Shown here in pieces: positions 23,884 through 44,080 of a stretch of 44,080 nucleotides of DNA. Source of the DNA: Bacteroidota bacterium (GTDB taxonomy: Bacteria > Bacteroidota > Ignavibacteria > Ignavibacteriales > Melioribacteraceae). The DNA is taken from assembly GCA_021801605.1 (NCBI GenBank), contig JAJYXU010000090.1, positions 1 through 44,080 on the forward strand. The letters run 5' to 3'. The notes under the pieces were generated by a model. That model did no database searches. It worked only from the letters and a program-made list of their open reading frames with translations, and was not told where the DNA came from. Position numbers and translations under genes: made by a program. Positions within the stretch are counted from its first letter, which is position 1, and each line of letters opens with the position of its first letter.

Positions 23884-25134
23884 TTACATGTTTTTAATAA
23901 TTGCTTTACCAAAATCCGAGCATCTTAATTCTTTGGCGCCTTTCATCAGACGTGCAAAATCGTAAGTAACGGTTTTTTGTTTGATTGCTTTGCCTATCGC
24001 TTTTTCAATTAGACGCGCGGCTTTAGTCCAACCCATATATTCCAGCATCATCACACCGGAGAGAATAACAGAACCCGGGTTGACTTTATCCAATCCTGCA
24101 TATTTAGGAGCTGTACCGTGTGTTGCTTCAAATACACCGCCGAAATAACTCATGTTCGCACCAGGTGCAATTCCCAATCCACCAACTTGAGCCGCAGTTG
24201 CATCAGATAAATAATCGCCATTTAAATTCGGTGTAGCGAGAACAGAATATTCAGTTGGACGTAACAGAACTTGCTGGAAAATACTATCAGCAATGCGGTC
24301 TTTAATTAATATTTTCCCTTCAGGCATTTTACCGTTGAATTTTTTCCAGAGATCATCTTCAGAAACTGTTACATCGGCAAAATATTTTTTAGCAGTTTCA
24401 TAACCCCATTCCTTAAAAGATCCTTCAGTAAATTTCATAATATTACCTTTATGAACAAGAGTAACGTTTTCACGTTTGTTGGCAATTGCATATTCAATCG
24501 CTTTCTTAACAAGCCGTTCAGTTCCAAACTTGCTCATCGGTTTAATACCAATTCCGGATTCAATGCGAATCTTCTTATCAAACTTTTTATTAATGTATTT
24601 GATAAGATCTGTCGCTTCTTTGGATTCAGCCTTAAATTCTATTCCGGCATAAACATCTTCCGTGTTTTCACGAAAGATCACAACATCTAAATCTTGAGGG
24701 CGTTTTACAGGACTTGGAGTACCGGCATAATATTTAACAGGACGAACACATGCAAACAAATCAAGTTCTTTTCTAAGTGCAACGTTTAAGCTTCTGATAC
24801 CGCCACCAATTGGTGTAGTCAAAGGTCCTTTAATTGCAATAATATATTCTTTGATCACATCAAGCGTTTCAGCCGGTAGCCATTGATTCTTTCCGTAAGT
24901 TTTAACTGCTTTCTCTCCGGCATAAATTTCCATCCAAACAATTTTCTTTTTCCCTTTGTATGCTTTTTCTACAGCGGCATCAAAAACCATTTGGGAAGCA
25001 AACCAAATATCTGGACCAATTCCGTCACCTTCGATAAATGGAATGATGGGATTATCAGGGACTGAAATCTTTCCGTCTTTTATAGAAATTTTTTCACCCG
25101 TAGAAGGAATAACAACTTTTTTGTACTTCGCCAT
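23884..25134 (-). CDS. icd: NADP-dependent isocitrate dehydrogenase, E. coli type
   Basis: A 416-aa dimeric-type isocitrate dehydrogenase that makes 2-oxoglutarate and CO2 in the TCA cycle. The substrate loop [17 protein letters not shown] has the Ser and Asn that contact isocitrate. [16 protein letters not shown] and the coenzyme segment [17 protein letters not shown] have the Lys-Tyr pair that marks NADP use in the E. coli enzyme. The start at 25134 is chosen because GGGAG lies 6 nt upstream; the ATG at 25146 has none. Its presence matters for reading the second, divergent dehydrogenase at 37809-38987, which is then not needed for the TCA step. Confidence 0.95.
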
Positions 25135-25213
25135 TTTTACTCCCATTTTATATTTCTAATTATTGTAAAAACTTTTCATATGAAAAATAATATATCTGAA
25201 AAGAGTAGACAAG

Positions 25214-33189: not shown

Positions 33190-34083
33190 TTATTTTAGCG
33201 CATCATCATACTTGGATATATGAGAAGGATCCACCTTCTTAAGAATTGAGAAAACTGATTTATCAGGATAACCTTTTAGAATTTCGACAAACTCACCGGC
33301 TTTAGCATCAAAAAAAACTTTCATCAAGACACTACGCGTGTCAATTTGGTCTTTCATCTTTTCCAGGTCTTTTATCAGCTTAAGAATATTATTGTAGGCA
33401 AATTGTCTCTGATCTTTGTCGGATAATAAATCCAAGCCATTATAGTGATAATCAAAGTAATCTTGACGGAATAACTGATACTTCGTATTCAACAGATTTT
33501 CAATTAAAGCACGTCTGTTATAAGCAGTGCTCTCTAACTGCCATCCTTTGGAAGATGAACTTCCCGCACCTTTTATTGTAATATCCAAAGCTTTCTGAAA
33601 ATACTCCGTACCATCCAAAGGCCCAAATGAATCGGCATCGAAACCAATCATAAGATATGCGTAAAAATCCAGTAAACTTGTTAACGGGTCAAAATCGGTC
33701 TGGTTGAAATACATTGCTTGATTCTTCTGATATTTGAACTGCCAGCTATTATCCATTATACTCATCATAAGAGAGTTTAATTGTGATCCATGAATTGGAC
33801 GCTGGCTTGCTACAACTAATTGTGCGCTATAACTTGTTTCATCGGATGAGCTATTGAAAAAAATATTGAAAGAGCATTTAATACGTTCCCCTTCCCACGC
33901 TTTGTTTGTAAACTTTGAATTATTCAAATAATCTTGAACCTGATTCTTAAAATTGTCTAACCGATCCCGTGCCGAAGTTTCAAGTTGTTCAACATTCACT
34001 ATAATTGTTGCATCCAACTCCTGAGCAGAAACAAACATCGGCAAAACAAATAAACAGATAATTGAAAGAACTGTTTTTTTCAT
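33190..34083 (-). CDS. DUF4835 family protein, PorD-like (type IX secretion-associated)
   Basis: A 297-aa exported protein: signal peptide KKTVLSIICLFVLPMFVSAQ, then ELDATIIVNVEQLETSARDR, IFFNSSSDETSYSAQLVVAS and FYAYLMIGFDADSFGPLDGT, which are DUF4835 hallmarks. NCBI lists this family as type IX secretion PorD; direct functional data are sparse. The start at 34083 (ATG, with GGAG 8 nt before it) is preferred over GTG at 34092. It is divergent from the PorV-like gene. The other type IX genes (porK-N, sov) are not in the window, so the assignment rests on family alone. Confidence 0.72.
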   Translation of the reverse strand: MKKTVLSIICLFVLPMFVSAQELDATIIVNVEQLETSARDRLDNFKNQVQDYLNNSKFTNKAWEGERIKCSFNIFFNSSSDETSYSAQLVVASQRPIHGSQLNSLMMSIMDNSWQFKYQKNQAMYFNQTDFDPLTSLLDFYAYLMIGFDADSFGPLDGTEYFQKALDITIKGAGSSSSKGWQLESTAYNRRALIENLLNTKYQLFRQDYFDYHYNGLDLLSDKDQRQFAYNNILKLIKDLEKMKDQIDTRSVLMKVFFDAKAGEFVEILKGYPDKSVFSILKKVDPSHISKYDDALK

Positions 34084-34160
34084 TATCCTCACTCCAGGTT
34101 TTTTCTTAATTCAAGATATAGATTTGGAAAAAATTAAACAATGATTTAAGTTGTAGCCAT

Positions 34161-34978: not shown

Positions 34979-36955
34979 ATGAAATTTGTATTCATAATAT
35001 TTTTTTCATTTTCACTTACACTTTACTCACAAGTTGATTCCACAACTTTTCAGACAGATCTAGATGACGTTCTAGAAGATGCCACGGTTGATAATGAAGG
35101 AACCGGATATTTCGATCTTGTAGAATACTTACTTCAAAATAAAATTCCTCTAAATCAAACCTCAATTAACGAATTGATGAAAGTTCCATTTCTCGATAGA
35201 CAAACAGCAACCGCTATAATACGCTATAGAAATTCATTAGGCGGAATCAGTTCCGCGAAGCAGTTAAAAGAGATTAATGGGGTTAACTCCGATCTCATAG
35301 AAAGAATTCTTCCTTACCTACGCTTCGAAGATACCGATAGATCGGCTTTCTTTGATCCTATCTCTAAGAAATTTGAGAATGTTGATATTTCTTTTCGTAC
35401 AAGAGGAATAAGAAAGTTTCAAGAGGAACAGGCTTATAAAGAAGGTAAATTTGATGGCTCAAGCTGGAAAATTTATAATCGCTTAATAATCAACAAAGAT
35501 CAAAATATTCGTTTTGGCATTCTGACTGAAAAAGACGCAGGCGAAAAATCCTTTAATGACTTTACAACATTTCATTTTTATGCAGAAAATATTGGAATAA
35601 TTAAAAAATTTGTAGCCGGTGATTTCTTGTATGAATTTGGACAGGGTCTTGCACTCTGGAGCAGATACTCAATTAGAAAAGGAGTTGAAACAGTTGGAAT
35701 TCTCCCCAGGAATGGAAGGTCAATTATTCCATATTTAAGTTCGGATGAAAACATGTTCCTTCGCGGAGTTGCTGCACAAATAAATTTTAATGAATTCAAG
35801 GTGAGTTCATTTTTTTCTTCAAGGCAAATGGACGGTTCTATTGATCCGGCAACAAATCAAATCACTTCTATTCGAATAGACGGTTTTCACCGTAATGAAA
35901 ATGAAATTGCACATAAAAGAATCATAAGCGAAAAATTATTCGGGATATCAGCAGACTATATCCTGGGCGAGATCGGTTCATTCGGTTTTCTCTATTACAA
36001 TTCAATTTTCGGAAATGATTTTCAAAATGAATCTGTGTTCGATCCGTCGGGAAATAGATTTGACTATTTTTCAACGAGCTATAATTTTATTGCTAACAAA
36101 CTTACTTTCAGCGGTGAGACTTCTTACAATATGAAATCATTTGCAACAATTAACAGTGTTGAGTTCTCCGTAAATAAAAATTTAACTCTCCTATTCTCTT
36201 ACCGGAATTATCCAAGAGATTACTGGGGATTGCATGCAAACGGTTTTGGTGAAAAGGACGGAACACAAAACGAAGTTGGTCTTTATTCCGGTCTGAAACT
36301 AAGATCCAATTTTGGAGTCATCTATTTTTATTATGACCAAATTGAATTTCCATCCACAAGCGATAAGCTGTTGTTTGCATCGAAAGGAAATGAATTCATG
36401 GTTTATTACACGGTCTCGCCCTTTGTTAATACCGAATTCCGTCTGCGGTACATCAATAAAAACAGCGAAGTATCGGATATCGTAAACGATGAATACGGAC
36501 TCACCAGGAGAAAAACTGAAAGTATAAGAGGAGAATTGACCTATAAAGTTTCAAAATACATTCAACTTCGCTCTCGAATAAATATGGTTGGTGTTTCCCC
36601 TTCCTCAAATTCATCATCAGAAAAAGGTTTTCTGCTTTTTCAAGATGTTAAATATTCCCCTACTCCATCACTCAACATTTCCGCAAGAATAGTCTTCTTT
36701 AGAACCGATTCTTACGATTCCCGGGTTTATGAATTTGAAAATGATCTAACAGGTGTAATGACAAATCCTCCATTATATGGGGAAGGCACACGTTGGTATC
36801 TATTGGCACAATACAAAACCTCGTTTGGTCTAACTCTCTCAATGAAATACTCAGAACTTTTCAAACCTGCCGAAAGAACACTTAGTAGCGGTGATACGGA
36901 AATTCAAGGTAACATTGACAATCGCTTAAGTTTTCAATTAGACTTTCAGTTTTAG
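34979..36955 (+). CDS. Outer-membrane protein with N-terminal helix-hairpin-helix domain
   Basis: A 658-aa exported protein. After a signal peptide (KFVFIIFFSFSLTLYSQ) comes a ComEA-like helix-hairpin-helix segment (about 45-110, KIPLNQTSINELMKVPFLDR, then KEINGVNSDLIERILPYLRF). The remaining 540 residues are a long beta-rich barrel ending in SFQLDFQF, with a C-terminal Phe as in outer-membrane barrels. This layout is recurrent in Bacteroidota and Ignavibacteria but has no assigned function. It starts 2 nt after the PorV-like gene without its own ribosome site. Confidence 0.7.
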   Translation: MKFVFIIFFSFSLTLYSQVDSTTFQTDLDDVLEDATVDNEGTGYFDLVEYLLQNKIPLNQTSINELMKVPFLDRQTATAIIRYRNSLGGISSAKQLKEINGVNSDLIERILPYLRFEDTDRSAFFDPISKKFENVDISFRTRGIRKFQEEQAYKEGKFDGSSWKIYNRLIINKDQNIRFGILTEKDAGEKSFNDFTTFHFYAENIGIIKKFVAGDFLYEFGQGLALWSRYSIRKGVETVGILPRNGRSIIPYLSSDENMFLRGVAAQINFNEFKVSSFFSSRQMDGSIDPATNQITSIRIDGFHRNENEIAHKRIISEKLFGISADYILGEIGSFGFLYYNSIFGNDFQNESVFDPSGNRFDYFSTSYNFIANKLTFSGETSYNMKSFATINSVEFSVNKNLTLLFSYRNYPRDYWGLHANGFGEKDGTQNEVGLYSGLKLRSNFGVIYFYYDQIEFPSTSDKLLFASKGNEFMVYYTVSPFVNTEFRLRYINKNSEVSDIVNDEYGLTRRKTESIRGELTYKVSKYIQLRSRINMVGVSPSSNSSSEKGFLLFQDVKYSPTPSLNISARIVFFRTDSYDSRVYEFENDLTGVMTNPPLYGEGTRWYLLAQYKTSFGLTLSMKYSELFKPAERTLSSGDTEIQGNIDNRLSFQLDFQF

Positions 36956-37068: not shown

Positions 37069-37314
37069 ATGAAACGAACGCAAATATATATTGATGACGA
37101 GCTTCATCGAATTTTGGTTTTGGAAAGCAAGCATAAACGAAGGAGAATGTCGAACTTAATTCGAGAAGCTCTTCGTGAAAAATATATGAATCAAGAAAAA
37201 CGGCTTCATCTGCTTGATTCAATTGTGGGAATCTGGAAAGACCGCAATTTTAATGTTGATCAATTCATTCGTGATTTGAGAAAAGACAACAGACGAAAAA
37301 GAATTTATGAATAA
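37069..37314 (+). CDS. vapB: Ribbon-helix-helix antitoxin (VapB-like)
   Basis: An 81-aa protein with an N-terminal ribbon-helix-helix domain (KRTQIYIDDELHRILVLESK and RRMSNLIREALREKY) and a basic C-terminal tail (LRKDNRRKRIYE) that would wrap the toxin. The start ATG has GAGAAG just before it. It overlaps the PIN toxin gene by 8 nt. A palindrome over the promoter (37037-37054) fits repression by this protein, alone or in complex with the toxin. Confidence 0.85.
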   Translation: MKRTQIYIDDELHRILVLESKHKRRRMSNLIREALREKYMNQEKRLHLLDSIVGIWKDRNFNVDQFIRDLRKDNRRKRIYE

Positions 37315-37684
37315 GAATATTCTTTTGGATTCCGACGTTATCATCTGGCTTCTGCGTGATAAGAATGAAATAGTTGAAAAGTTTAGAACGGTAATTTTAA
37401 ACAACACGCTATTTGTTACGCCGGTAACTGTTGCAGAAATATTTTCGGGCGCCCGCAAAGACGAATTGAGAAAGATCCATGAATTCTTTGAACTCGTGAG
37501 AGTAATAGAAATCAATTTCGAAATTGGAAAACTCGCAGGTGAATTTATTCAACAATTCAGTAGATCTCACTCCGTTGAAATTGCCGATGCACTGATTGCC
37601 GCTTCATCAAAATATTATGAACTAAAGTTATGGACGCTTAACACCAAACATTATCCAATGCTGAATAAGACCAGTCTTTTCTAG
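37307..37684 (+). CDS. vapC: PIN-domain RNase toxin (VapC-like)
   Basis: A 125-aa PIN-domain protein. The acidic residues are Asp8 (LLDSD), Glu44 (VAEIFSGA) and Asp94 (EIADALIAAS); at the fourth place the sequence is TLNTKHYP, with Asn112 instead of Asp. That is seen in many active VapC proteins. It cleaves RNA, in studied members initiator tRNA or the sarcin-ricin loop; the target here is unknown. It is coupled to vapB by an 8-nt overlap. Confidence 0.88.
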   Translation: MNKNILLDSDVIIWLLRDKNEIVEKFRTVILNNTLFVTPVTVAEIFSGARKDELRKIHEFFELVRVIEINFEIGKLAGEFIQQFSRSHSVEIADALIAASSKYYELKLWTLNTKHYPMLNKTSLF

Positions 37685-37808: not shown

Positions 37809-38987
37809 ATGAGAACTATCGTTTCACTTCCCGGTGATGGAATCGGAAAAGTTGTATTACCGGAATCAATCAGATTACTTGAAGCAGCCGGATTCAAAGC
37901 GAATTATGTTCACGGAGATATTGGATGGGAATTTTGGTGTAAAGAAGGTAACGCACTTCCACAGCGTACTATCGATTTAATTGCCGAGCATAAGATTGCA
38001 CTCTTTGGGGCAATTACCAGCAAAGCAAAAGACGCTTCTGAAAAAGAACTCGATCCAGAATTGAAAGGAAAAGGATTTGTTTACTTTTCACCTATCGTCA
38101 GTTTACGACAGAAATTTAATCTTGATATTTGTATCCGTCCATGCGTTTCATTAAAAGGAAATCCGCTAAACTTCATCAGAAGAAGCGCTGATGGCGGATT
38201 TGAAGAACCGATGGTAAATGCAGTCATATTCAGACAAAATACAGAAGGACTTTATGCCGGAGTTGAATGGACAAATCCGCCTAAACAAGTTCGTGATGCA
38301 CTTGAGACACATTCTAAAATGAAATTCTTCAAAGATACTCCAAGTGAAGAGATGGCAGTCTCAACCCGAATAGTTACAAAGAAAGCAAGTGAACGAATCA
38401 TCCGTTCAGCTTTTGAATACGCAAAGAAATTTGGTTATACCAATCTTACTCTTTGTGAAAAACCAAATGTCTTAAGAGAAACTTCCGGTATGATGTTTAA
38501 GATTGCGAAAGAAATTGCGAAAGAATATTCGAACATTGCATTGTGGGATACAAATATAGATGCTCAGATGATGTGGCTTACAAAAAATCCGGAAGATTAC
38601 GGAGTAATTGTTGCTGAAAATATGTTCGGTGATATTATCAGCGATGGATTTGCCGGATTAATTGGCGGACTTGGTTTTGCATGCAGTGCAAACATCGGAG
38701 AAGAAGTCGCAGTATTTGAACCAACGCATGGCTCGGCTCCAAAATATGAAAAAATATATCCGTCAATCGTTAACCCGATTGCAATGTTTATGAGCGCGTG
38801 TATGATGTTAGATCATATTGATGAGAAAGAGATCGCAACAAAAATTCGCAAAGCAATTGCAAAAGTTGTTGAAGAAGGGAAAGTTCGTACTTACGACATG
38901 TTGAAACTGCGCGGCGGTGCAGATGTTTTTAAAAAAGGCGCCGCAACAACTCAACAAATGACAGATGCAGTAATTTCAAAATTGTAA
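37809..38987 (+). CDS. Isocitrate/homoisocitrate/isopropylmalate-type dehydrogenase
   Basis: A 392-aa beta-decarboxylating dehydrogenase. It begins with IVSLPGDGIGKVVLPESIRL, has the substrate loop FSPIVSLRQKFNLDICIRPC, then VIFRQNTEGLYAGVEW, the metal-binding DGFAGLIGGLGF region and the coenzyme segment FEPTHGSAPKYEKI. The loop SPIVSLR resembles SPIVALR of fungal homoisocitrate dehydrogenase (LYS12) more than SLNVALR of isocitrate dehydrogenase, and the window has a separate E. coli-type icd. With the LYS4-like hydratase 1.1 kb downstream, homoisocitrate to 2-oxoadipate is a plausible reaction. Isocitrate or isopropylmalate remain possible. Confidence 0.78.
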   Translation: MRTIVSLPGDGIGKVVLPESIRLLEAAGFKANYVHGDIGWEFWCKEGNALPQRTIDLIAEHKIALFGAITSKAKDASEKELDPELKGKGFVYFSPIVSLRQKFNLDICIRPCVSLKGNPLNFIRRSADGGFEEPMVNAVIFRQNTEGLYAGVEWTNPPKQVRDALETHSKMKFFKDTPSEEMAVSTRIVTKKASERIIRSAFEYAKKFGYTNLTLCEKPNVLRETSGMMFKIAKEIAKEYSNIALWDTNIDAQMMWLTKNPEDYGVIVAENMFGDIISDGFAGLIGGLGFACSANIGEEVAVFEPTHGSAPKYEKIYPSIVNPIAMFMSACMMLDHIDEKEIATKIRKAIAKVVEEGKVRTYDMLKLRGGADVFKKGAATTQQMTDAVISKL

Positions 38988-39055
38988 AAAGCTAGAAGCA
39001 AGAAGTAAGTGGTTTTGTTCTAACCTCTCGCTTCTCGCCTCTTACGGAGGTACAA

Positions 39056-39589
39056 ATGAAAGATAAAATAAAAAAGCTATGGCCTGAAATTGATTGGATT
39101 AAAGATAATTCTTTACGTGAAAAAACTTTGAATGCCTGGATCTATGCAATAGAAAGTTCTGTTCTTACTCCTGAAGATTTGGAAATTATCCCATTCTCTC
39201 TTCTAGTCAAAGATTGTAAAATTTCTTTTATGAATCACAAGCGTACCTGTGTTCAACTTGCTGTTGAAATTGCCAACACAATGAATAAAAACTTTGGTGA
39301 CGCTATAAAAATAAACATGGACATTCTAATCTCAGGAGCAATTCTAATTGATGTTGGTAAATTGATCGAATATGAAAAAGTTGATGGGAAAATAAAAACC
39401 AGCAAAGCCGGCGATCTCGTTCGTCATCCATTTAGCGGACAAGCAATTGCAGCACGTTTCGATCTACCTTTTGAAGTCCAGCATATTATTGCTACTCATT
39501 CGAAAGAAGGAGATCTTGGCAAACGTACAGTTGAGTCAATCATTGTTCATCATGCGGATTTTGTATCCTTCGAACCGTTTAAAGTATAA
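39056..39589 (+). CDS. HD-domain protein with altered HD dyad
   Basis: A 177-aa protein of the HD phosphohydrolase superfamily: MNHKRT (His61), the helix ILIDVGKLIEYEK where the HD dyad should be, RHPFSG (His124), ATHSKEG (His148) and VHHADF (Asp168). The dyad His is replaced by Ile98 (Ile-Asp), so metal binding may be altered or absent; the other ligands are kept. The start has a clear GGAGG. It lies between the dehydrogenase and the four-helix-bundle pseudogene, in line with the carboxylic acid genes. Its substrate is unknown. Confidence 0.75.
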   Translation: MKDKIKKLWPEIDWIKDNSLREKTLNAWIYAIESSVLTPEDLEIIPFSLLVKDCKISFMNHKRTCVQLAVEIANTMNKNFGDAIKINMDILISGAILIDVGKLIEYEKVDGKIKTSKAGDLVRHPFSGQAIAARFDLPFEVQHIIATHSKEGDLGKRTVESIIVHHADFVSFEPFKV

Positions 39590-39596
39590 ATCACAA

Positions 39597-40042
39597 TTTC
39601 CAAATAACAAATAACAGTGAATTCTCAATGAACAATGCACAAAGTAATTTTGATTTGGAAGAAAGGACTTTTCAATTCGCGAAAAAAGTTGCTCAATATG
39701 TTTCCAAACTTCCAAAAACAACATCAAATATTGAATACTCAAAGCAAGTCATTAGAGCTTCTTCTTCGGTAGGGGCAAATTATAGAGAAGCAAATGAAGC
39801 TTTGGGCAAAAAAGATTTCAATATGAGATTGAAAATTTCACGGAAACAAGCCAAAGAATCATCCTTCTTTTTGTGATTAATTATTGAAACAAATGATGAT
39901 TCCTTTAAAAAAGGAAGGTCTTGAATTGTTTGATGAAGCCGAACAATTAAAAAAAATATTTTCAGCGATTCTCTTAAAAACAAATTGAGATTTGGTTTTT
40001 GGTATTTAACTGTAATTTGGATTTTGTTATTTGATATTTATT
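39597..40042. repeat. Imperfect inverted flanks around the S23 pseudogene
   Basis: The left flank (39602-39636: AAATAACAAATAACAGTGAA) and the inverse of the right flank (39990-40042) share AAATAACAAA, a nearly identical ACAGT-AA block and CAA-rich text, with a small gap. Together they bracket the four-helix-bundle pseudogene like the ends of a cassette. Confidence 0.4.
39628..39988 (+). pseudogene. Broken four-helix bundle (S23-like) protein gene
   Basis: The first 82 codons encode a typical four-helix bundle protein: FDLEERTFQFAKKVAQYVSK, then EYSKQVIRASSSVGANYREA and KISRKQAKESSFFL, followed by TGA (39874-39876). The protein family continues with W(L/R)L at this point, and the DNA after the stop encodes LIIETNDDS in the same frame. 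After one extra base in the A/G run (39904-39915) the frame +1 encodes EGLELFDEAEQLKKIFSAIL and ends at 39988. A nonsense change (TGG to TGA) plus a one-base insertion therefore broke the gene. The family often moves between genomes and sits in 23S rRNA insertions. Confidence 0.8.
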
Positions 40043-40079
40043 CATTCTTCTAAAAAGATTAATAAGATTGGAGTAAAAT

Positions 40080-42059
40080 ATGTCCCAAACTCTAATAGAA
40101 AAAATTGCACAACGATATGCAGTTGGATTACAAGCAAATCATACTGTTAAAGCCGGAGATTATATTTCGATTCGACCTGCTTATGTAATGACTCATGATA
40201 ATACCGGAGCCGTCATTCCAAAATTTAAAAGTATTGGCGCGACTAAACTAGCCAATCCGCGTCAAGTTGTTCATACACTTGATCATGACATTCAAAACAA
40301 AGACGAAAAAAATTTAGCGAAGTATAAAAAAATTGAAGAGTTTTCAAAATCAATGGGCGCTGATTTTTACCCGGCGGGACGCGGCATAGGTCACCAAATA
40401 ATGATTGAGGAAGGTTACGCCTGGGCAGGTACTATGTCGGTTGCATCAGATAGTCATTCAAATATGTATGGCGGAATCGGATGTTTGGGAACACCGATTG
40501 TGAGAACAGATGCCGCGGCTATCTGGGCGACTACAAGAACCTGGTGGCAAGTTCCTCCAATTGCTAAAGTTGAATTAAAAGGAAAACTTAAGCCAGGTGT
40601 GACAGGTAAAGATATTATAATTGCATTGTGCGGATTTTTTAATCATGATGAAGTTTTAAACCATGCAATCGAGTTTACCGGCGACGGAATTAAAGAATTA
40701 GCTATTGATCAACGACTCACAATTGCCAATATGACAACAGAATGGGGAGCTATGGCAGGTGTCTTTCCAATTGATGAAATCACAATCAATTGGTTGAAGA
40801 GTAGAGCGAGATTTATCTCGCTCCGTGGTTTGGAAGGAGTAACTTCCGACGTTGACGGTAATGGAATTCATCCACGTATCAATGAAGCAAGAATTTCCGA
40901 ACTGGAAAAAGATTTACAAAATTTGAAAGCTGATCTTAATGCTTTTTACGCAAAAGAATTAATAATAGATCTTTCATCAATCGAGCCGCATGTTTCAGGA
41001 CCGAATACAGTTAAGACAATGACTTCAATTTCGGAGATTAAACAGAAGAAAGTAAAGATCAATAAAGCATATCTGCTCTCTTGTGTTAACTCACGTGTTG
41101 ACGATCTTGCAGAAGCTGCATCAATCATTCGTGGTAAAAAAATTTCAGATCATGTTAAATTTTATATTGCCGCCGCATCGAGTGAAGTTCAAGCTGAAAG
41201 CGAGAAACGTGGCGATTGGAAAACTCTTTTGGACGCCGGTGCAATTCCTCTTCCGCCAAGTTGCGGACCTTGCATAGGACTCGGAACCGGGTTATTAGAA
41301 GATGGTGAAGTGGGAATCTCTGCAACAAACAGAAACTTCAAGGGAAGAATGGGTTCTCCCAATGCACAAGCTTATCTCGCTTCACCTGGAGTTGTGGCTG
41401 CATCTGCCGTTTCCGGTTTTATCAATTTTGATTCTGAAAATTTATCTGGAAAAATTTTAGGTGAAATAAAAACAAATGTAAAATCAGAAATAACGAAAAG
41501 TGCTGTTAGAATAATTGATGGCTTTCCATCTCAAGTTGAAGGTGAATTAATCTTTTGTTATCAGGATAATTTAAATACCGACGGAATCTATCCAGGCAAA
41601 TACACATACAACGATGATATGACTCCGCAAGACCAGGCAAAAGTTGTTATGGAAAATTACGATCCGGAATTTGGGAAAATGGTTAACGATGGAGATATAC
41701 TCGTCGGCGGTTTCAATTTTGGAACGGGAAGTTCACGTGAGCAAGCTGCTACTGCACTGAAGTATCGCGGAATCCGTTTGGTTGTTGCCGGTTCATTCAA
41801 TGAAACATACAAACGCAACGCTCTCAATAACGGTTTCCTTGTTATCGAATGTCCTGAACTCGTAAATGATCTGAAGTTAAAATTCGGGAAAGAGAAACTA
41901 TCCGTGAAAACTAAGATAATTGCAAAGATGGATTTCCAAAATTCTGTGTTGGTCACAAAAGAAAAATCTTATTCGATTGATCCGGTTGGTGAAGCCGCAC
42001 AAGAATTAATTGTTACCGGTGGATTGGAAGAATGGGTAAAAAGGAATTTAAATCAATAG
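40080..42059 (+). CDS. LYS4-type homoaconitase (aconitase-superfamily hydro-lyase)
   Basis: A 659-aa single-chain aconitase-superfamily enzyme with an N-terminal [4Fe-4S] domain and a C-terminal swivel domain. The cluster cysteines are Cys335 (LLSCVNSR), Cys395 and Cys398 (PSCGPCIG). Long stretches read like yeast homoaconitase LYS4, for example SDSHSNMYGGIGCLGTPIVR, LTIANMTTEWGAMAGVFPID and GISATNRNFKGRMGS. The swivel loop ETYKRNALNNG also has the RNA/RNS-N pattern of homoaconitase rather than the aconitase SFARIHETN pattern. The likely reaction is cis-homoaconitate to homoisocitrate; serving as the cell's aconitase is the main alternative. GGAG precedes the start. Confidence 0.85.
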   Translation: MSQTLIEKIAQRYAVGLQANHTVKAGDYISIRPAYVMTHDNTGAVIPKFKSIGATKLANPRQVVHTLDHDIQNKDEKNLAKYKKIEEFSKSMGADFYPAGRGIGHQIMIEEGYAWAGTMSVASDSHSNMYGGIGCLGTPIVRTDAAAIWATTRTWWQVPPIAKVELKGKLKPGVTGKDIIIALCGFFNHDEVLNHAIEFTGDGIKELAIDQRLTIANMTTEWGAMAGVFPIDEITINWLKSRARFISLRGLEGVTSDVDGNGIHPRINEARISELEKDLQNLKADLNAFYAKELIIDLSSIEPHVSGPNTVKTMTSISEIKQKKVKINKAYLLSCVNSRVDDLAEAASIIRGKKISDHVKFYIAAASSEVQAESEKRGDWKTLLDAGAIPLPPSCGPCIGLGTGLLEDGEVGISATNRNFKGRMGSPNAQAYLASPGVVAASAVSGFINFDSENLSGKILGEIKTNVKSEITKSAVRIIDGFPSQVEGELIFCYQDNLNTDGIYPGKYTYNDDMTPQDQAKVVMENYDPEFGKMVNDGDILVGGFNFGTGSSREQAATALKYRGIRLVVAGSFNETYKRNALNNGFLVIECPELVNDLKLKFGKEKLSVKTKIIAKMDFQNSVLVTKEKSYSIDPVGEAAQELIVTGGLEEWVKRNLNQ

Positions 42060-42060
42060 A

Positions 42061-42279
42061 ACACGGATAACGCAGATTCATCCCGTGGAATAAATTGATA
42101 ATTAAATTTAGGGTAGTTCCAAAAACTATCTTTTGTAAAAAATTTAACGCGGAGAACGCAAAGTTCGCAGAGGATATTGAAGTTTTTGGAACTACCCTTT
42201 ATTACAAAAGATAAAATGTTATTCCATGGGGTAAGCGGATTTTCACAGATAAATCCGCGCAAATCTGTGTTATCCGCGT
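42061..42279. repeat. Nested inverted-repeat stack (three levels)
   Basis: Three inverted repeats lie inside each other. Outer: ACACGGATAACGCAGATT (42061-42078) with AATCTGTGTTATCCGCGT (42262-42279), 16 of 18 pairs. Middle: CCCGTGGAATAA (42082-42093) with TTATTCCATGGG (42219-42230), 11 of 12. Inner: the perfect 17-bp ends of the element at 42111-42197. A separate hairpin GCGGATTT/AAATCCGC lies at 42235-42258. Outer and middle belong to repeat family B. The stack starts 1 nt after the homoaconitase-type stop. Confidence 0.7.
42111..42197. mobile_element. 87-bp MITE-like element with perfect 17-bp ends and TTTA duplication
   Basis: GGGTAGTTCCAAAAACT (42111-42127) and AGTTTTTGGAACTACCC (42181-42197) are perfect inverted ends. 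TTTA at 42107-42110 and again at 42198-42201 fits a 4-bp target duplication. The core holds a family A text (ACGCGGAGAACGCAAAGTTCGCAGAGG split over 42147-42175). There is no ORF. Confidence 0.7.
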
Positions 42280-42500
42280 CTATTTCATACTTTTTTTTGA
42301 ACCGGCAAAACAATAATTTTACATCAGAAATAATTCAGTCAGATAACTTATTATGCTAAAGAGAAAATCAAACACTTCTAAGCAACTCTTCCCCTGGCTT
42401 AACTTCCCAAAGGTTTTCGAAACCAACTGGCAAAATAAATAGTCTACTTCCCTTTCTTTTTCTTCTTTCGAATCAAAATAAAAATACAAGGTAAACAAAT
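42280..42500. other. Intergenic leader region of the PrpD-like gene
   Basis: The rest of the 441-nt gap before the MmgE/PrpD gene. A short imperfect palindrome GGTTT TCG AAACC (42412-42424) is the only structure seen. No ORF or RNA gene; AAGG lies 10 nt before the downstream ATG. Confidence 0.4.
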
Positions 42501-43982
42501 ATGGGAAAATCCATTTCACGAGTAATCTCGGAATTTGCAGTAAAGCTCAAATATGAAGATTTACCGGACGAAGTAATTCACGAAGCAAAAAGATATTTGT
42601 ATGATTCGATTGGATGTGCTTACGGCGCATACACAACTAAAGATGTAAGCATCATCCGCAATATTTATAAAAAGATGGGCGGTAAATCGGAAGCTACAGT
42701 CTTTGCTTTCGGCGAAAAGATACCTGCTGTAAACGCGACACTTGTAAATTCATTGATGATACGATCTCTCGACTTTAATGATATTTACTGGAAAGAAGAT
42801 CCATCACATCCATCAGATATTATTCCGGCAGCGCTTTCGGTTGCTGAAATGATCGGGGCAAACATGAAAGATGTGATCGTTGCCATCGTTCTCGCTTATG
42901 AGTTTGAACAAAGAATGTGCTTATTTGCAAAACCAGGTGCGCGTGAACGTAAATGGCATCACGCTACACTTACTCAGTTTGTATCTCCTATTATTGCCGG
43001 TAAAATCCTTGGGCTAACAGTTGATCAGATGGTCAATGCAATCGGCATCAGCGGTTCACACAATCATACAATCGGTTGCCCGACAGCAGGCAAACTTACA
43101 ATGATGAAAAATACAGTTGACCCGATGGCAGTTCAATCCGGAGTTTTTGCAGCTTTAATGGCACAGAAAGGTTACAGCGGAACGGAAAAAGTATTTGAAG
43201 GAAAAGAAGGATTTATGGATTGCTTCGGCGGATGGGATCCTATAAATGAAATGATTAAACCGGTAGTTATGAAAGGACGTGATGGTGAATCCGAATGGTC
43301 TTGGAATATAGATGCGTTAATCGGTGGATTAGGTAAGAACTGGAAAATTCTAGAGTGCAGCATGAAAGCATTTCCAACCGAAGCATTAACTCACACTCAC
43401 ATTTCGGCAACACTCAAAACAATCGTCACTCATGATATCAAATATGATGAGATAGAAACCGTAACAATTACAACCATTGCGAGAGCTTGTGATATTTTAT
43501 TTGATACACACAAATACCGTCCCGAATCGCGTGAAACTGCCGATCACTCACTTCCTTATTGTATTGCCGCTGCGATTGTTGATAGAAAAATTACAACTCA
43601 ATCTTTTACCGATGAAAAAATGAAAGATCCTAGAATTTGGGAAGTGATTGATAAAATTAAAGGTGTAGCTTCACAAGAATTTGAAAGTATGTTCCCGGCA
43701 AAACAGCCATCAAAAGTCGTTATCAAAACAAAAGACGGCAGAGAATTTTCAGAATATTTAGAATACCCGAAAGGTGATCCACGCGAACCGATGACAATGG
43801 AAGATCTCGAGAATAAATTCAATGCTCTTTCCGAAAAAATACTTTCCAAAAAACGTCAGCAAGAAATCAAGAATATGATTTTTGATTGTGATAAATTGAA
43901 TGCAAGACATTTTATGAACATGCTGGCGCTAAAACAAAAATATCAAAAGAAAAAGCCGAGAATAACTAAAAGAGACCTCTGA
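42501..43982 (+). CDS. MmgE/PrpD-family (2-methylcitrate dehydratase-like) protein
   Basis: A 493-aa MmgE/PrpD protein: VIHEAKRYLYDSIGCAYGAY, then the active-site segment SLDFNDIYWKEDPSHPSDII (DFND 91-94, HPSD 103-106), HHATLTQFVSPI and SMKAFPTEALTHTHISA. Family members include 2-methylcitrate dehydratase (PrpD) and cis-aconitate decarboxylase. No prpB or prpC is here. Because a LYS4-like hydratase lies 0.4 kb upstream, dehydration of a homologous tricarboxylic acid (homocitrate or citrate) to its cis-aconitate form is a reasonable guess. Substrate identity is not shown by the sequence. Confidence 0.8.
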   Translation: MGKSISRVISEFAVKLKYEDLPDEVIHEAKRYLYDSIGCAYGAYTTKDVSIIRNIYKKMGGKSEATVFAFGEKIPAVNATLVNSLMIRSLDFNDIYWKEDPSHPSDIIPAALSVAEMIGANMKDVIVAIVLAYEFEQRMCLFAKPGARERKWHHATLTQFVSPIIAGKILGLTVDQMVNAIGISGSHNHTIGCPTAGKLTMMKNTVDPMAVQSGVFAALMAQKGYSGTEKVFEGKEGFMDCFGGWDPINEMIKPVVMKGRDGESEWSWNIDALIGGLGKNWKILECSMKAFPTEALTHTHISATLKTIVTHDIKYDEIETVTITTIARACDILFDTHKYRPESRETADHSLPYCIAAAIVDRKITTQSFTDEKMKDPRIWEVIDKIKGVASQEFESMFPAKQPSKVVIKTKDGREFSEYLEYPKGDPREPMTMEDLENKFNALSEKILSKKRQQEIKNMIFDCDKLNARHFMNMLALKQKYQKKKPRITKRDL

Positions 43983-44040
43983 AAGAGTAAAACACAGTAC
44001 CATGAAGAAGAATAATCGTTAAATAATAATATTTTTCCCC

Positions 44041-44071
44041 TTTGCTGATGATTTTACATTCATTAAATTTG
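44041..44071 (+). promoter_or_regulatory. Candidate Bacteroidota-type promoter at the window edge
   Basis: TTTG (44041-44044), a 19-nt spacer and TAAATTTG (44064-44071) fit the -33/-7 pattern exactly. It would drive a plus-strand gene beyond the window. Confidence 0.5.
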
Positions 44072-44080
44072 TGCCAGTAT

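Follow-up and report, generated by a model that had tools for sequence, protein, structure and literature searches.

We describe a six-gene module, built around a putative homoaconitase of the fungal LYS4 type, in the draft genome of a Bacteroidota bacterium of the Melioribacteraceae (assembly GCA_021801605.1). Four of its genes lie at the end of contig JAJYXU010000090.1, analysed here over its whole 44,080 nucleotides (hereafter, the window), which is contig C39 of the 189 contigs of this 3.24-Mb genome. The gene content, protein families, linkage and co-occurrence that we observed incline us, by a modest measure, to a module that would act on the homocitrate series and interconvert 2-oxoadipate and homocitrate, with a citrate-lyase-like enzyme that would split homocitrate; in relatives without LysW it would serve lysine breakdown. 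The features concerned are as follows (L063 is the part of contig C31 that carries the last two genes).

37809..38987, + strand: Iso_dh family dehydrogenase, proposed homoisocitrate dehydrogenase, with NADP-type residues (PF00180, 259 bits)
39056..39589, + strand: HD-domain-type protein, kept beside the homoaconitase (PF01966 match of a relative)
40080..42059, + strand: fungal-type (LYS4-like) putative homoaconitase (TIGR00139, 881.5 bits)
42501..43982, + strand: MmgE/PrpD-family dehydratase, proposed homocitrate dehydratase (PF03972, 246 bits; PF19305, 159 bits)
43876..44080, no strand: contig end, identical to the first bases of contig C31 (L063:1-192) apart from a single 13-base indel (sequence match)
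L063:216-769 (C31): Phd/YefM antitoxin and YoeB/ParE-type toxin pair, between the MmgE/PrpD and CitD-CitE genes
L063:784-2004 (C31): CitD-CitE fusion, CitDE (Pfam families)
L063:2501-4057 (C31): CitF, citrate lyase alpha subunit (Pfam and equivalog)

Module genes in the window and on contig C31

All genes at 37809-43982 are on the + strand and encode a dehydrogenase of 392 amino acids (aa), an HD-type protein (177 aa), an aconitase-superfamily protein (659 aa) and an MmgE/PrpD protein (493 aa). A preliminary description of this DNA had covered the dehydrogenase and the 659-aa protein, and both frames (37809-38987 and 40080-42059, both +, with a gap of about 1.09 kb) hold as described. Beyond it are the HD-type gene between the two enzymes and the MmgE/PrpD gene just past the end of the region it covered; this dehydratase gene and the citrate-lyase-like genes are parts of the cluster that the first reading missed.

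Contig C31 starts with the last bases of the window, followed by the antitoxin/toxin pair, CitD-CitE and CitF. Given the contig overlap, and CitDE and CitF in their expected places on C31, all six module genes are therefore present in the window's genome. The 13-base insertion (window 43969-43981 versus L063:93-94) alters the C-terminus of the MmgE/PrpD protein, and this difference between the contig ends is likely strain variation or an assembly fork.

Homoaconitase

Sequence comparisons support the assignment of the 659-aa protein as a putative homoaconitase of the LYS4 type. It passes the homoaconitase equivalog TIGR00139 of the NCBI family models (cut-off 529.9 bits) and reaches the cut-off of none of the other 24 models among the matches listed; the putative aconitate hydratase model TIGR01342 was rejected (275 bits, cut-off 719). 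Its best match among solved structures is a homoaconitase large subunit (4kp2, 237 bits). The likeness to yeast LYS4 noted in the preliminary description is borne out at 376 identical residues in 644 aligned positions, with a LYS4 sequence checked only by its TIGR00139 score (1395 bits across the whole model, which makes it at least a family member). The corresponding figures are 184/575 for the genome's own LeuC+LeuD and 167/634 for its own 832-aa aconitase-like protein. The active-site segments are all there (DSH, three cluster cysteines and SSRE), as is the loop YKRNALNNG that had been singled out.

In a tree, the bacterial group and LYS4 stand apart from the genome's aconitase-like protein and LeuCD with full support; the point where LYS4 joins the bacterial group is not settled, as long branches meet there. 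The nearest relatives are in Ignavibacteria/Melioribacter genomes (at most 92% identity). Within the window's genome, the relatives found are an aconitase-like protein on contig C18 and LeuC/LeuD; the names of the 832-aa aconitase-like protein and of LeuB and LeuA come from context and inspection by eye.

Dehydrogenase

The 392-aa protein belongs to the isocitrate/homoisocitrate/isopropylmalate dehydrogenase superfamily and passes no named subfamily; its best NCBIfam model is AksF_Meth (273 bits, cut-off 500), and it also fails the isocitrate dehydrogenase models TIGR00183 (177 bits, cut-off 567) and TIGR00175 (191 bits, cut-off 432). The motif SPIVSLR, which the preliminary description had likened to fungal LYS12, is present. 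The patterns SPIV.[LM]R, APKY and [TS]YDM occur in 37/37 aligned family members, the window copy included, whereas both isocitrate dehydrogenases in the alignment carry SxNV at the SPIV site. The NADP isocitrate dehydrogenase of the window carries APKY and TYDF; APD is found in Thermus homoisocitrate dehydrogenase. We take the SPIV columns and the APKY/[TS]YDM columns to be the substrate and NADP positions, respectively, of E. coli Icd. Use of NADP, as predicted from these residues, would suit the reductive direction. The SPIV motif speaks for the role of homoisocitrate enzyme; the protein passes no model for that enzyme.

MmgE/PrpD and HD-type proteins

Fungal homoaconitases interconvert homoaconitate and homoisocitrate; in the passages of PMC3556520 that deal with these enzymes, action on homocitrate was not seen and a second dehydratase is needed, a need that the authors liken to that for methylcitrate dehydratase in the methylcitrate cycle. 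Since fungal homoaconitases link only homoaconitate and homoisocitrate, an MmgE/PrpD gene beside a LYS4-type gene fits the need for a second dehydratase. The 493-aa protein falls short of all three PrpD equivalogs that it matches (95 bits against 575, 85 against 950 and 75 against 458).

We rejected the methylcitrate cycle itself, because the PrpD models fail and 2-methylisocitrate, with its tertiary alcohol, is no substrate for a dehydrogenase. A dehydrogenase that acts next requires a secondary alcohol, which excludes 2-methylisocitrate.

The window copy of the HD-type protein has no Pfam match at E 0.001, and a relative passes PF01966 (37 bits, cut-off 22). Its predicted structure (pLDDT 90) has YhaM (9h3f) as its sole structural match at E 0.001 or better, from which we infer no role.

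CitD-CitE and CitF

By Pfam, the module's protein of about 406 aa joins an ACP/CitD-like domain to a CitE-type lyase, and that of about 519 aa is CitF. Among solved structures, those nearest to the CitE part are CoA-dependent lyases, e.g. CLYBL and malyl-CoA lyase. A Ser-Asp pair is conserved in the CitD-like domain of 35/35 aligned members, one column off serine 14 of E. coli CitD, the attachment site.

Distribution and co-occurrence

We found 52 homoaconitase loci, two of them with identical proteins, under the titles Ignavibacteria, Zixibacteria, KSB1, Calditrichota, Marinimicrobia, Planctomycetota and Acidobacteriota, plus single Caldisericaceae and Ectothiorhodospiraceae genomes; the relatives' loci come from genomes assembled from metagenomes, and mis-binned contigs may account for some of the titles. 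The shared order across 53 loci is dehydrogenase, sometimes a CstA-type transporter, HD-type protein, homoaconitase, MmgE/PrpD protein and the proteins of about 406 and 519 aa. Counted as presence anywhere in a locus (single-linkage clusters; many loci are cut by contig ends), the dehydrogenase is found in 36, PrpD in 35, HD in at least 32, CitDE in 27, CitF in 26 and CstA in 13 of the 53.

The six-gene set recurs across several phyla, in part split into separate loci. Two genomes of another family (G001 and G012) have HD-homoaconitase-PrpD at one locus and dehydrogenase-CitDE-CitF at another. The G156 locus holds MmgE/PrpD, dehydrogenase and HD genes, a divergent CitF and a citryl-CoA-lyase-like gene (L086:3756-4637) whose product is over three subfamily cut-offs; the fetched locus showed no CitDE, and the homoaconitase is on a separate contig (L040). 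Genes in these loci were called as longest frames, so that in some loci CitF and homoaconitase genes are masked by frames on the opposite strand; the genome scans did find them. As the parts are retained together in one genome despite such splits, they likely belong to one pathway.

Among 149 genomes of the class, 35 carry the homoaconitase, 34 of them over the cut-off (the carrier G078 has a fragment below it, 445 bits). For comparison we used a panel of 61 genomes, namely all 35 carriers and 26 of the 114 non-carriers, taken in list order with G025 skipped (contamination 7). CitF (E up to 1e-30) is found in 32/35 carriers and 0/26 non-carriers, and LysW over its cut-off in 13/35 and 1/26; the homoaconitase thus travels with the citrate-lyase-like enzyme more than with LysW synthesis. 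The 22 class carriers without LysW have CitF in 20 cases and LysA over its cut-off in 16, so these 16 probably make lysine from diaminopimelate. Nineteen further carriers lie outside the class: CitF is found in 10 and LysW over its cut-off in one, with weaker LysW matches in three.

Genes of lysine synthesis in the window's genome

The preliminary description had suggested that the enzyme pair could form part of an alpha-aminoadipate route to lysine or another chain-elongation path, and had proposed a search for lysine genes. This interpretation finds partial support. An operon on contig C45 encodes LysW (77 bits, cut-off 53), LysX (351, cut-off 276) and LysZ (242, cut-off 223) together with a homocitrate-synthase-like gene; this last name follows from model rank and genomic context, the top model, TIGR02146, scoring 344 bits, short of its 413.55 cut-off. 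LysA is also over its cut-off (345 bits, cut-off 298). Matches to the DHDPS family at two contig ends look like one split gene, both best against dapA and each below its cut-off. A 214-aa gene in the LysW operon (L064:2749-3393) resembles, by eye, a class II glutamine amidotransferase.

The Iso_dh genes found in this genome are a LeuB-like gene (in a leu-operon context), the isocitrate dehydrogenase of the window and the 392-aa dehydrogenase. As only these three were found, the window pair offers the best candidates for both steps lacking in the LysW operon, for which nothing else came up besides the LeuB-like, LeuC/LeuD and aconitase-like genes. The operon without these steps and the homoaconitase assignment are what stands of the earlier proposal, and the two enzymes may also supply 2-oxoadipate to the genome's own LysW operon, as one use of a reversible core.

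We regard it as rather improbable that synthesis is all there is, with homoaconitase and dehydrogenase completing the LysW pathway and the other genes being unrelated neighbours. The passing LysW, LysX and LysZ with a homocitrate-synthase-like gene alongside fit such a reading, and so does Caldithrix abyssi, where the part of PMC5317091 on lysine genes describes a single locus with LysWXZYJ and Hcs, the remaining genes being left to further analysis. The panel counts demoted it as a sole role: LysW is over the cut-off in a minority of the class carriers and in just 1/19 of the others, and among the LysW-less class carriers most have LysA over its cut-off and most have CitF.

Proposed route

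In the route that we favour, the dehydrogenase would carboxylate 2-oxoadipate with CO2 and NADPH to homoisocitrate, the homoaconitase would dehydrate this to homoaconitate, and the MmgE/PrpD protein would hydrate the latter to homocitrate. CitF would then activate homocitrate by forming its thioester, which the CitE part would cleave to 2-oxoglutarate and acetate, the net result being fungal aminoadipate chain elongation in reverse. CitDE and CitF in the window's genome point to such a use in cleavage. In LysW-less relatives, lysine would pass through saccharopine, aminoadipate semialdehyde and aminoadipate (the last converted by a putative transaminase) to 2-oxoadipate, and the module would finish the breakdown. 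The substrates, direction, NADP use and thioester chemistry of this route are inferred.

More tentatively, and leaning slightly against its being right in full, we put forward a wider proposal: a widespread, hitherto undescribed bacterial lysine breakdown through homocitrate, with CitF plus CitD-CitE as homocitrate lyase and MmgE/PrpD as homocitrate dehydratase, the carrier being armed without CitG or bypassed by free CoA, and the same reversible core serving synthesis in LysW-bearing species.

Possible link to lysine breakdown

A LysW-less genome (G096) has a complete module and, on the opposite strand 4-8 kb beyond CitF, three genes of lysine-breakdown type. One is a piperideine-6-carboxylate (pip6C) dehydrogenase that passes its equivalog (818 bits, cut-off 730) and matches antiquitin (535 bits) among its top solved structures; of the other two, one encodes a saccharopine dehydrogenase like that of yeast (336 bits) and one, which closes the stretch, is LKR-like. 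The three enzymes would between them convert lysine to aminoadipate. For the LKR-like relative in another genome (G117), the match is to human AASS, in its LKR half (241 bits), and LKR-like genes sit next to saccharopine dehydrogenase genes in 10 of the 14 fetched saccharopine loci, all from carriers. With thresholds for a long saccharopine dehydrogenase (195 and 245 bits) chosen by eye after the scores were seen, the stricter form is found in 12/22 LysW-less and 1/13 LysW-bearing carriers (n=35). Those neighbours that were scanned in loci of Zixibacteria, Calditrichota, Marinimicrobia, Planctomycetota and Acidobacteria (some neighbours only) added nothing more on lysine.

The same genes bear on whether the module shortens or extends some other 2-oxoacid chain, e.g. 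a branched analogue. Its enzyme families are common to several 2-oxoacid elongation pathways, and its substrate is a prediction; LYS4-type membership and the saccharopine genes near the G096 module point instead to a C6 dicarboxylate, and we hold another chain to be quite unlikely.

Homocitrate or citrate

Several results weigh against the proposed route. The dehydrogenase passes none of the homoisocitrate dehydrogenase models (AksF models and NF040855; 273 bits against 500, 264 against 540 and 137 against 680), and its top solved structure is an NAD isocitrate dehydrogenase (6lky, 205 bits), with Thermus homoisocitrate dehydrogenase at 187 bits. CitF on C31 passes the citrate lyase alpha equivalog (515 bits, cut-off 501), so that citrate itself is a possible substrate. 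CitG, the maker of the citrate lyase cofactor, was found at E 1e-5 in 0/80 genomes, 42 of them with CitF (the same search matched 5 of 14 control genomes, E. coli among them); the carrier would have to be armed by some other means, or else the acyl group be borne by CoA directly. Of the 19 carriers from other groups, nine gave no CitF, and one of the ten CitF proteins that were found there (G152) is just 33% identical to that of the module. Fisher p-values for the panel ignore kinship, and genomes within a family are not independent. Proximity of module and saccharopine genes is seen in one genome, with three other genes in between; long saccharopine dehydrogenase (about 450 aa) is in 20/35 carriers and 4/26 non-carriers, and PF16653, its C-terminal domain, has no match at E 1e-10 in the window's genome (G000). 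With only these 20 carriers and no match in the window's genome, saccharopine dehydrogenase as a universal partner of the module was rejected. Finally, the activities given for A. fumigatus LysF in the portion of PMC3556520 on this enzyme are 7.5 U/mg with homoisocitrate, 0.99 with citrate and 1.88 with isocitrate.

Some of these points serve the main rival, activity on the citrate series, in which 2-oxoglutarate would be converted through isocitrate and citrate to acetate and oxaloacetate, as a reductive half-cycle or a glutamate fermentation with a true citrate lyase. Besides the CitF model, the top structure of the dehydrogenase and the LysF activities, this reading can call on the APKY and TYD residues that the dehydrogenase shares with the NADP isocitrate dehydrogenase of the window, and on Melioribacter roseus, which lacks ATP citrate lyase according to the relevant part of PMC3534657. 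Yet the genome already has an isocitrate dehydrogenase over the cut-off (23884-25146, minus strand, TIGR00183, 686 bits, cut-off 567), a separate gene as the preliminary description had maintained, and another aconitase-like gene. Moreover, the aconitase-family protein of the module passes homoaconitase and not aconitase, SPIV replaces SxNV throughout the dehydrogenase family, with an aconitase for both halves no separate dehydratase would be needed, and the CitE part fails the citE equivalog (294 bits, cut-off 443). On these grounds we judge the citrate series unlikely, though it is the alternative to be taken most seriously.

Other genes in and around the cluster

Immediately upstream of the dehydrogenase is a PIN-domain gene (37307-37684). 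Genes for a helix-hairpin-helix protein (34979-36955) and a DUF4835 protein (33190-34092) lie further upstream and are kept in several relatives' loci. Proteins of the 23S rRNA intervening-sequence type (PF05635) occur at varying sites of the cluster (window 39628-39876, L045:2821-3177, L054:9550-9909 and L007:14961-15359), the window copy being short (82 aa). Small genes related to the toxin-antitoxin pair are found at the equivalent site in L022, L025, L033 and L041.

Significance

Every enzyme family in the module is already known, and their combination is unnamed in the papers searched. In that literature, which omits most subscription journals, no paper contains "homocitrate lyase", and none brings together homoaconitase and Ignavibacteri, or homocitrate, citrate lyase and lysine degradation, or 2-oxoadipate, homocitrate and lysine catabolism. 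If the homocitrate route is true, it would bring a new lysine breakdown route, and homocitrate lyase as a new enzyme, to several phyla known mostly from metagenomes, and would give these bacteria a testable means to convert lysine carbon into acetate and 2-oxoglutarate. It would also offer candidates for the two enzymes lacking in the genome's own LysW operon (the corresponding Caldithrix abyssi genes are left open in the section of PMC5317091 on that locus), and fungal LYS4 would gain close bacterial relatives outside the Thermus/archaeal HacAB type.

Comparison with known systems

The module resembles the citrate lyase CitDEF of E. coli and others in that CitF passes the alpha model and the CitD-like domain keeps Ser-Asp; unlike there, CitD and CitE are fused, CitE fails citE and CitG was found in none of the 80 genomes searched, whereas E. 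coli K-12 has citG, citX and citC beside citDEF. With the methylcitrate cycle it has in common that isomerisation is divided between MmgE/PrpD and aconitase-family enzymes, but in the module a dehydrogenase would act next and PrpD models are not passed. As in LysW-type synthesis of Thermus/Deinococcus, the window's genome has a LysW operon and a homocitrate-synthase-like gene; in contrast, its homoaconitase is a single LYS4-type chain and not a split HacA/HacB, and LysW over its cut-off accompanies it in only 13 of the 35 class carriers.

Saccharopine breakdown (AASS, ALDH7A1) has its counterpart in the LKR-like, saccharopine dehydrogenase and pip6C dehydrogenase genes near the G096 module. 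Animals convert 2-oxoadipate to glutaryl-CoA, whereas here it is proposed to go through homocitrate; the window's genome also differs in having no PF16653 match.

Closest in outline is the fungal alpha-aminoadipate pathway (LYS4, LYS12), with which the module shares the homoaconitase family, the proposed intermediates and the need for a second dehydratase. It departs from that pathway in that the second dehydratase would be an MmgE/PrpD protein and not an aconitase, that a citrate-lyase-like pair is attached, and that the dehydrogenase has NADP-type residues.

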